A stretch of DNA of 33,577 nucleotides, from assembly GCA_028818565.1 (NCBI GenBank), contig JAPPNV010000403.1:1-33577 (forward strand), given 5' to 3'. Below, piece after piece: positions 4,441-6,137 of this stretch. The DNA is from Rhodospirillales bacterium. Lineage in GTDB: Bacteria > Pseudomonadota > Alphaproteobacteria > UBA828. Position 1 is the first letter of the stretch; each line of letters begins with the position of its first letter. The notes below the pieces were generated by a model. That model was not told the origin of the DNA and did no database searches. It saw only the letters and a list, made by a program, of their open reading frames with translations. Position numbers and translations under genes: made by a program.

Positions 4441-4475
4441 CTAGAGTGTTTCCGTGCGCAACGGAAACGCTCTAG
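4441..4475. terminator. 35-bp palindrome between convergent genes
   Basis: The arms are 4441-4455 (CTAGAGTGTTTCCGT) and 4461-4475, with loop GCGCA. They are complementary apart from one T/G wobble position. The structure lies between the plus-strand MFS gene and the minus-strand EamA gene and includes the EamA stop codon (4472-4474). Position and symmetry suit a bidirectional transcript end. The motif resembles dispersed intergenic palindromes of alphaproteobacteria, but I cannot test its copy number here. Confidence 0.5.
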
Positions 4476-5410
4476 GAGCGTGCGGCGTCGACCGAGCGGC
4501 CGGCGAAGATCTCGCCGCGCTGGATCACCAGGCTGGCCGCCAGCACGATGACGACACCGGGGATGGTGAGGGCACTCGGCAGGCCCTTGCCCAGCGCCCA
4601 GTCGATGGCGATGACGAGGGCCGGCAGGAGGTAGCTGTAGGCCTGCACGCGGGTCGGCCCGATGCTGATGGTGCCCCACTGCATCAGGAAGGAGGCGATC
4701 ACGGTCGAGCAGATCGCGACGAAGACGATCCCGCCGTACGCGAAGAGCGGCACATCGCTCCACGCTGCAGTCCATAGTGCCTCGTTTGCGATGAGCAGGA
4801 ACCAGATCGCGTTGATGGTCGCGATCCAGAAGGTCATGACCAACACCGGCTCGCCCCGGTGGAAGAGCTTGACCAGCGGGCTGTAGAAGCCCATCGCGAC
4901 GCAGCCTGCGAAGAAGATCAGGTCGCCCTCGTTGAGGTCGAGTGCGACGAAGCGGTCCCAATCGCCGCGGAAGACCACCCAGAGCGCGCCGATCAGGCCG
5001 ATGCCAAGCGCCGCGAGACGATGCCAGCCCAGCCGCTCGCCGACGAGGATCGCTCCCGCAATCGCCGTGAGGCCGGGGATCAGGGTCGAGAGCGCGCCGG
5101 TGTTGAGCGCGCTGGTGGTACGCAGGCCGTAGAACATGCACCAGAAGAACGCGACCAGTGAGGTGCTGATCGCCGCGTAGCCTGCAAGCGTGCGCCAGCC
5201 CGGCCAGGCGATGCCGTGGCGCCAGGCGACCAGCGGAGCGAAGATCGCCATCGCCAGACCGAAGCGGATGAACAGCAACGCGCCGGTGTTCAGCTCGTTG
5301 GCGATCGCCTCGCCCACCGGATAGCTGAACGAGATGAGGAACATGGCGACGAACACCCCGGCGTGAACGCCGGGCGTGGAGACGCCGCGCGGGGGCTGGG
5401 ACTCCGTCAT
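4472..5410 (-). CDS. EamA/DMT-family transporter
   Basis: This 312-residue protein has about 10 membrane segments arranged as two EamA repeats, as in the drug/metabolite transporter superfamily (RhaT/YdcZ-like inner-membrane carriers, often amino acid or metabolite exporters). Visible hallmarks are SYPVGEAIANELNTGALLFIRFGLA in repeat 1, and TTSALNTGALSTLIPGLTAI and the QWGTISIGPTRVQAYSYLLPALV-type region, interrupted here for length, in repeat 2. The start is the ATG at 5410 (MTESQPPRG); upstream in-frame codons give a Pro/Arg-rich stretch that does not look coding. The ribosome site is weak (GGTGG). Its stop is buried in the palindrome at 4441-4475. It is divergent from hsp20. Substrate is unknown. 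Confidence 0.88.
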   Translation of the reverse strand: MTESQPPRGVSTPGVHAGVFVAMFLISFSYPVGEAIANELNTGALLFIRFGLAMAIFAPLVAWRHGIAWPGWRTLAGYAAISTSLVAFFWCMFYGLRTTSALNTGALSTLIPGLTAIAGAILVGERLGWHRLAALGIGLIGALWVVFRGDWDRFVALDLNEGDLIFFAGCVAMGFYSPLVKLFHRGEPVLVMTFWIATINAIWFLLIANEALWTAAWSDVPLFAYGGIVFVAICSTVIASFLMQWGTISIGPTRVQAYSYLLPALVIAIDWALGKGLPSALTIPGVVIVLAASLVIQRGEIFAGRSVDAARS

Positions 5411-5469
5411 GGCGCGCCACCGTGGCGCAGGGCCGCGCACAGGTCCAGCGCGGGACTCGTCTGCGGCTC

Positions 5470-5500
5470 CTTGAAGCCCTGCCCCGGCATTCCCATATGA
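5470..5500 (+). promoter_or_regulatory. Heat-shock (RpoH/sigma-32-type) promoter of hsp20
   Basis: CTTGAAG at 5470-5476 and CCCATATGA at 5492-5500, separated by 15 bases, match the sigma-32 consensus (CTTGAAA, 11-16 bases, CCCCATNT) and the alphaproteobacterial CTTG-N17/18-C(C/T)TATNT form. Transcription from here would give a leader of about 100 bases in front of hsp20, the usual size for a ROSE element. Confidence 0.6.
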
Positions 5501-5507
5501 TGGGTGC

Positions 5508-5606
5508 CCGAGGGGGTGCCGCAGGACGGGTCCCCGACAGGGCATGGAACCGGTCCGGCCATAACGGCGGACCACTGACTGACTTGCTTACGAAAGGAGT
5601 CACACC
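5508..5606 (+). promoter_or_regulatory. ROSE-like RNA thermometer in the hsp20 leader
   Basis: The last leader hairpin pairs TGACTTGCTT (5580-5589) with AAGGAGTCA (5594-5602) across an ACGA loop, sequestering the Shine-Dalgarno AAGGAG (5594-5599). The anti-SD contains TTGCT with G5586 unpaired opposite the SD. This is the signature bulged G of ROSE elements. A second hairpin lies just upstream (GGTCCG 5552-5557 with CGGACC 5568-5573). ROSE elements are known to block translation of alphaproteobacterial small heat-shock genes at low temperature and melt on warming. The pairing is read from the sequence; the function is inferred. Confidence 0.66.
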
Positions 5607-6059
5607 ATGCGTGCATTCGATCTTTCCCCGCTCTTCAGCACCACGGTCGGTTTCGACCGGATGGCCCGGCTGCTCGAGCAGGTGCCGAGCGAGACGGCGC
5701 CCACCTATCCGCCCTACAACATCCAGAAGATGGACGAGAACGCGTACCGCGTGACGCTCGCCGTCGCCGGCTTCGGCGATGACGAGATCAGCATCGAGGT
5801 GAAGGAGAACCTGCTCACCGTCGCGGGCAAGCTCGCCAAGGAGAATGGCGCGAACGAGAGCTATCTCCACCGCGGCATCGCCACCCGCGCGTTCGAGCGG
5901 CGCTTCAACCTCGCCGATCATATCCAGGTGACGGGCGCGGCGCTCGACAAGGGGTTGCTGCACATCGACCTGGTGCGCGAGCTTCCCGAAGCGCTCAAGG
6001 CGCGCAAGATCGCCATCGAGACCGGCGGCCAGAAGCGGATCGACCGCAAGGCCTCCTGA
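5607..6059 (+). CDS. Small heat-shock protein (Hsp20/IbpA-like)
   Basis: A 150-residue protein with a short N-terminal arm (MRAFDLSPLFSTTVGFDRM), an alpha-crystallin domain from about residue 33 to 125 (YPPYNIQKMDENAYRVTLAV, then VKENLLTVAGK and FERRFNLADHIQVTGAALDKG) and a basic C-terminal tail. Length and the ...PLF..TVGFDR start match the IbpA class. It is an ATP-independent cytosolic holdase that binds unfolding clients and hands them to DnaK/ClpB. AAGGAG lies 7 bases before the ATG. Expression is likely controlled twice, by the RpoH-type promoter and by the ROSE-like hairpin. It is monocistronic, ending in a strong hairpin terminator. Confidence 0.95.
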   Translation: MRAFDLSPLFSTTVGFDRMARLLEQVPSETAPTYPPYNIQKMDENAYRVTLAVAGFGDDEISIEVKENLLTVAGKLAKENGANESYLHRGIATRAFERRFNLADHIQVTGAALDKGLLHIDLVRELPEALKARKIAIETGGQKRIDRKAS

Positions 6060-6104: not shown

Positions 6105-6137
6105 GGGGCGCGGGCCAGAGGGCTCGCGCCCCTTTGC
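6105..6137 (+). terminator. Rho-independent terminator of hsp20
   Basis: The 8-bp GC stem GGGGCGCG (6105-6112) / CGCGCCCC (6125-6132) extends inward with GGCC-like pairs and is followed by TTTGCT. A smaller hairpin, CGCGAGG-TCG-CCTCGCG (6071-6087), precedes it. Confidence 0.7.

Follow-up and report, generated by a model that had tools for sequence, protein, structure and literature searches.

Heat very likely activates the hsp20 gene studied here at two levels, through RpoH-dependent transcription and through melting of a ROSE-like leader in its mRNA. That this leader is a ROSE-like thermometer located behind an RpoH-type promoter is well supported by what was observed directly: the sequence itself, a fold conserved within the genus, a core and covariation found across the class, and an rpoH gene encoded in the same genome (372.3 bits versus a cut-off of 323.1). 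In the proposed mechanism, whose inferred steps are use of the promoter, the site of transcript initiation, melting of the hairpin and control of translation, RpoH holoenzyme would transcribe hsp20 from the promoter at positions 5470 to 5498, judging by the conserved sequence. The three-hairpin, ROSE-like leader of the mRNA would then hide the Shine-Dalgarno sequence (5595 to 5599) in hairpin III, whose pairing would be weakened by the bulged G5586 and by the U5585-G5597 wobble. Warming would open hairpin III and allow ribosomes to load, as has been proved for other U(U/C)GCU elements. Our analysis indicates that hairpin III very probably hides the ribosome-binding site until it is warm.

The window, i.e. 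the whole stretch of DNA that was analysed (33,577 nucleotides), is contig C190 of a 4.14-Mb assembly, and its closest public relatives are Alphaproteobacteria/Rhodospirillales metagenome bins. Within it, hsp20 (positions 5607 to 6059, plus strand) encodes a small heat-shock protein of 150 amino acids (PF00011 HSP20, E 5.1e-18), and a consensus scan placed its likely terminator, a 12-pair, G+C-rich stem and then TTT, at 6105 to 6132 on the same strand. A divergent, membrane-protein-like ORF on the minus strand (4472 to 5411) adjoins the promoter on the upstream side; a Pfam search assigned it to no family at E 0.001, and it presumably resembles an EamA-type transporter. The same genome carries a second, distant hsp20 (contig C318, 44% identity), and the leader of this gene (L002) has its own ROSE-like core, ACTCGCTCGA.GGAGGAG, ahead of the start. 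Among the five same-genus paralogues that were fetched, four have a ROSE-like core (L082, L083, L084 and L086) and L085 has none.

The promoter and the leader of hsp20

The original prediction had placed an RpoH-type promoter about 100 bases upstream of hsp20, and this was borne out. The sequence contains an RpoH (sigma-32)-type promoter on the plus strand (5470 to 5498), consisting of a -35 box, CTTGAA (5470 to 5475), a 17-nt spacer, and a -10 box, CCATAT (5493 to 5498), and the -10 octamer ends 106 nt before the ATG. Its conservation was assessed in six distinct leaders of the genus (L001 and L003-L007), five named loci that are identical or nearly identical to members of this set (L032-L035 and L048) having been dropped. 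The -35 box and the C before it (CCTTGAA) are the same in all six leaders, as is the 17-nt length of the spacer, whereas the flanks are variable: column identity averages 1.00 for the -35 box, 0.71 for the spacer, 0.81 for the -10 box (CCACGT in one of the six) and 0.56 for the upstream region. A loose RpoH pattern is present in 32 of 71 leaders from the class set described below, compared to 3.2 in shuffles. Across the genome, the short promoter pattern shows no enrichment (4 matches versus 3 for the reversed control), and the evidence for the promoter therefore rests on conservation; inspection of six-frame translations downstream of the other three matches revealed no recognisable heat-shock gene. 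In the available excerpts of the cited papers, the sigma-32 consensus is given as NNCTTGAA-N13-18-CNCCATAT (PMC3669281) or, alternatively, as CTTGAA-N15-16-CCTATAT (PMC4843759); the hsp20 promoter fits the former and fits the latter less exactly. RpoH-dependent use of this promoter is what we infer from its sequence.

Judging from the -10 box, the transcript would start near 5504 to 5507, yielding a 5' untranslated leader of about 105 nt (5504 to 5606, plus strand), in which mean column identity across the six genus leaders is 90% (alignment A3). From these six leaders alone, RNAalifold drew three hairpins, all on the plus strand, with the bulged G of hairpin III included. The 5'-most of them, hairpin I (5506 to 5543), has a core stem (5512-5517/5530-5535), a bulged G5518, C5519-C5520 paired to G5528-G5529, and an outer stem (5506-5509/5540-5543). 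Hairpin II (5552 to 5573) pairs 5552-5557 with 5568-5573 and 5559-5560 with 5566-5567, leaving G5558 bulged. In hairpin III (5580 to 5602), the putative thermosensor, UUGCU (5584 to 5588) is opposed to AGGAG (5595 to 5599) with G5586 bulged, an assignment that draws on the sequence, RNAalifold, covariance model R2 (see below) and covariation. Its pairs are U5580-A5602, G5581-C5601, A5582-U5600, C5583-G5599, U5584-A5598, the U5585-G5597 wobble, C5587-G5596, U5588-A5595 and U5589-A5594, G5586 being bulged between the wobble and C5587-G5596.

It had been claimed from the sequence that the last hairpin of the leader hides the Shine-Dalgarno sequence by means of a TTGCT pairing and the bulged G5586, and that a second stem lies just above it. 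The pairs can indeed be read, and unaided RNAalifold agrees; the second stem corresponds to 5552-5573. A third, 5' stem (5512 to 5535, inside 5506-5509/5540-5543) is new relative to that prediction. The leader shows the features of a ROSE-like element: imperfect pairing between a U(U/C)GCU motif and the Shine-Dalgarno sequence in the 3'-proximal hairpin, a bulged G within the motif, and three hairpins in all, where the 5' UTR upstream of a small heat-shock gene would be expected to have two to four. A duplication, TGACTGACT, which occurs only in L001 and L003 among the six genus leaders, lets hairpin III slide. The minimum-energy register uses UGACU (5576 to 5580), at -6.10 kcal/mol at 37 C versus -5.90 for the canonical one; both registers cover the Shine-Dalgarno sequence, and the difference is 0.2 kcal/mol. 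For the single leader (5507 to 5620), folding stability is unremarkable when compared to shuffles (z -0.8).

Rarity and class-wide conservation of the putative thermosensor core

A descriptor composed of a YGCU core, AGGA and at least four further contiguous pairs matches the window (33.6 kb, both strands) only once, exactly at hairpin III and with five further pairs. The remaining locus DNA (317,892 strand-bases) gave one match with at least four outer pairs and none with at least five; the chance of a match is about 1.7e-4 per leader.

Conservation beyond the genus was examined in a class set of 73 leaders: 60 from hsp20 matches (E <=3.6e-36) in the genomes of 95 relatives, the window's own included, and 13 from named loci, two of which belong to the Granulosicoccaceae and are not alphaproteobacterial. 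Counts over 71 leaders lack L055 and L066, counts over 73 include both, and paralogues (L002 and L080-L089) were excluded from the orthologue counts. A YGCU core with a Shine-Dalgarno sequence no more than 50 nt from the start was found in all 71 orthologue leaders, compared to a mean of 4.4 in shuffles, a comparison that is flattered since shuffling also destroys the Shine-Dalgarno sequence; the pairing controls are free of this flaw. GCU is invariant in all 73 leaders (alignment A2). The five outer pairs are present in 274 of 355 cells, as compared to 184.1 +/- 7.8 (maximum 213 of 1000) when arms were exchanged between leaders with the register re-chosen each time, an earlier version of this control having used the register that maximised pairing. 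In alignment A5 (60 distinct non-genus rows), 93.9% of the cells are paired versus 80.0% when shuffled, and the double-change cells number 68 versus 22.3, covariation that supports a class-wide structure including the bulged G. As hairpin III is invariant within the genus, evidence from covariation must come from these more distant leaders; given the class-wide covariation of the outer stem, the GACU/AGUC flank of the genus is thus one among several compensated forms of the AUAU-type flank that is usually seen. All later leaders from a phylum-wide draw also had the core (27 of 27 from alphaproteobacteria, 13 of 13 from outside the class) when a slightly looser Shine-Dalgarno list was used. The ROSE identity of the hsp20 leader proposed earlier is upheld by these data, with the core present in every orthologue leader scored and a stem that covaries strongly.

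The original prediction had called for a scan with the Rfam ROSE covariance models. In the window, no Rfam family reached its cut-off; the best ROSE score, from RF02523 (ROSE_3), is in the right place at 11.2 bits versus a cut-off of 43 (E 8.4), and RF00435, RF01832 and RF02523 gave no match at E <=1 over the six genus loci. Rfam matches to TEG147, mir-140 and mir-7964 were ignored, being far below their cut-offs. In a positive control, Rfam ROSE_2 matched E. coli ibpA at 100.4 bits. At E 0.001, RF00435 matched in 3 of the genomes of the 95 relatives, always directly upstream of the hsp20 orthologue and once in the same family.

A model built from 34 of the 67 non-genus leaders, picked by eye for alignable arms (R1, alignment A4), recovered hsp20 leaders from 12 of the 21 genomes of the family and from none in the window's own genus; it gave no match to hairpin III in the window or the genome and was set aside as too narrow. 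A broader model (R2, alignment A5) was built from 63 of the 67 (L055, L066, L068 and L069 omitted). Its best match in the window is hairpin III (17.1 bits, E 0.0046), the first of four, the next scoring 9.6 bits. Over 45 kb of chosen loci, R2 matched all six genus leaders at 12.3-17.1 bits, although four of these six, at 12.3-14.4 bits, are outscored by a chance match in coding DNA (14.8 bits). Thus, the scan yielded nothing above cut-off with Rfam and a match with R2. As R2, trained without the genus, does match, the failure of Rfam seems to reflect a gap in its models. In E. coli, R2, which was trained almost wholly on alphaproteobacterial hsp20 leaders, matches the ibpB leader (L144 400-430, minus strand) at 20.1 bits and misses ibpA.

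ROSE-type control of hsp20 would appear, from these sequences, to be near-universal in the leaders examined. RF00435 passes its cut-off in 0 of the 95 relatives' genomes (under Infernal's stricter filters), and counts made by such models therefore probably fall far short in these lineages. A class-wide alignment yields a better ROSE model and reveals a second conserved bulged-G hairpin.

Bulged-G hairpins in the 5' part of the leader

Towards the 5' end of the leader (-118 to -54), 60 of 73 leaders have a hairpin in which a single G is bulged on the 5' side; with another bulge base, or with the bulge on the opposite side, the figure is 2-10 of 73. In 52 of these 60, U-G or C-G forms the pair beneath the bulge, and in 56 the pairs above it are CC/GG, a YGC/GG step shared with hairpin III. 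Under a strict definition (YGCC...GGG and four or more outer pairs), the hairpin occurs in 46 of 73 leaders versus 0.55 in shuffles, with 12 occurrences elsewhere in 299,666 strand-bases; among the later leaders it occurs in 17 of 27 alphaproteobacterial ones and only 2 of 13 from outside the class. In the region of hairpin II, 54 of 73 leaders have a bulged-G hairpin.

E. coli ibpA also carries a YGCC/GGG hairpin, upstream of where the ROSE_2 model begins (the ROSE_2 match, L144 917-989, begins downstream of it), and the Rfam ROSE_2 model may therefore be truncated. Hairpin I itself is not new, as the RF00435 consensus already has a bulge there. For a core common to hairpins I and III, no description was found in the available excerpts of PMC3669281, PMC11342760 and PMC12857270, a set of sources that does not include the founding ROSE paper. 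It is possible, although we consider it doubtful, that alphaproteobacterial ROSE leaders bear the bulged-G core twice and that hairpin I, if conserved for function, is a working part of the thermometer. According to the part of PMC3669281 available, what the 5' hairpins do is incompletely understood, and hairpin I of Pseudomonas stays closed up to 50 C, which counts against a second sensor. If the two-core reading is true, hairpin I could act as another heat-labile joint, as a scaffold for folding or as a stabiliser of the 5' end, and ROSE would have to be redefined as a two-core element.

Alternative explanations and known systems

The failure of Rfam and R1 to recognise hairpin III and the unremarkable folding energy of the leader speak for a chance hairpin over an ordinary Shine-Dalgarno sequence. 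However, the hairpin is unique in the window, at a chance rate as low as that given above, is conserved in all six genus leaders and covaries across the class; these counts already contradict such an origin, and we assign it practically no probability. Conservation of the leader might also be explained by a regulatory upstream reading frame, GCATGG...TAA (5544 to 5564), in frame with hsp20. ATG-GAA-CCG-GTN-CGG-CCN-TAA can be read in five of the six genus leaders, and two of the few changes are synonymous, but the sixth leader (L006) has no stop and a changed codon 2, its frame being opened into hsp20, and no good Shine-Dalgarno sequence is present ahead of 5544. Moreover, changes inside hairpin II also preserve its pairs, so structure accounts for the same data, and we regard a regulatory frame as very unlikely.

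Control might instead be mainly transcriptional, exerted by RpoH, with the hairpin setting a low, constant level of translation and not acting as a thermometer in the temperature range of the organism. Within the promoter region, conservation is highest in the boxes, and the predicted exposure of the Shine-Dalgarno sequence shifts little with temperature, from 0.13 to 0.21 between 20 and 48 C in a nearest-neighbour simulation. However, the same energy model does not pass its control, the proved ibpA element of E. coli, which moves the wrong way, and temperature simulations were therefore rejected as evidence. The exact U(U/C)GCU core and the bulged G are retained class-wide, and in tested relatives these same features confer heat-lability, as reported in the available parts of PMC11342760 and PMC3669281. 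Mainly transcriptional heat control is thus improbable, though less so than the upstream frame, and we favour activation at both levels.

ROSE control of rpoH was considered and rejected. The genome's own rpoH leader has CGCTC...AGGAG, but the core is absent from the rpoH leaders of the other readable genus members (L146-L149), and the motif was therefore treated as chance. Sequestration of the start codon by pairing of GCAUGG (5542 to 5547) with CCAUGC (5605 to 5610), which RNAalifold drew from the genus leaders, was also rejected as not above chance class-wide: over the 73 leaders, the length of start-region complements is 5.16 versus 5.46 in shuffles, and they are at least 6 long in 24 leaders versus 30 expected. 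Genome-wide, the pattern TGCTY...AGGAG...ATG occurs in 6 places, one of them hsp20 (7 in the reversed control), and CGCTY...AGGAG...ATG in 22 places, one of them the second hsp20 (13 in the reversed control).

Among known elements, ROSE-G (PMC12857270, in excerpt) shares the bulged G in the anti-Shine-Dalgarno arm. It has CUGCU with an opposing bulged G and is reported to lie upstream of ABC transporter genes, whereas the hsp20 leader has UUGCU and a single bulge, with U5585 paired to G5597 and no opposing bulge in the canonical register. RF01832 (ROSE_2, E. coli ibpA) resembles it in the YGCU/AGGAG hairpin, the small heat-shock gene and, in E. coli, the upstream YGCC/GGG hairpin I. Rhizobial ROSE (RF00435), whose founding member is Bradyrhizobium hspA (PMC3669281, PMC4166951 and PMC11342760, as far as available), is likewise a multi-hairpin element upstream of hsp20 with a UUGCU core and a bulged G, and its first hairpin has a bulged G before CC/GG. 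The leader described here differs from it in having a GACU/AGUC rather than an AUAU-type flank and in inter-hairpin spacing, and it falls below the Rfam cut-off. The ibpA genes of Pseudomonas putida and P. aeruginosa, as described in the accessible part of PMC3669281, likewise combine a sigma-32 promoter with a ROSE-like leader on a small heat-shock gene, and in both U(U/C)GCU is paired to the Shine-Dalgarno sequence in the 3' hairpin, although their leaders have two hairpins in about 62 nt and that of hsp20 has three in about 105 nt. For P. putida ibpA, the same work proved dual control by sigma-32 and ROSE.
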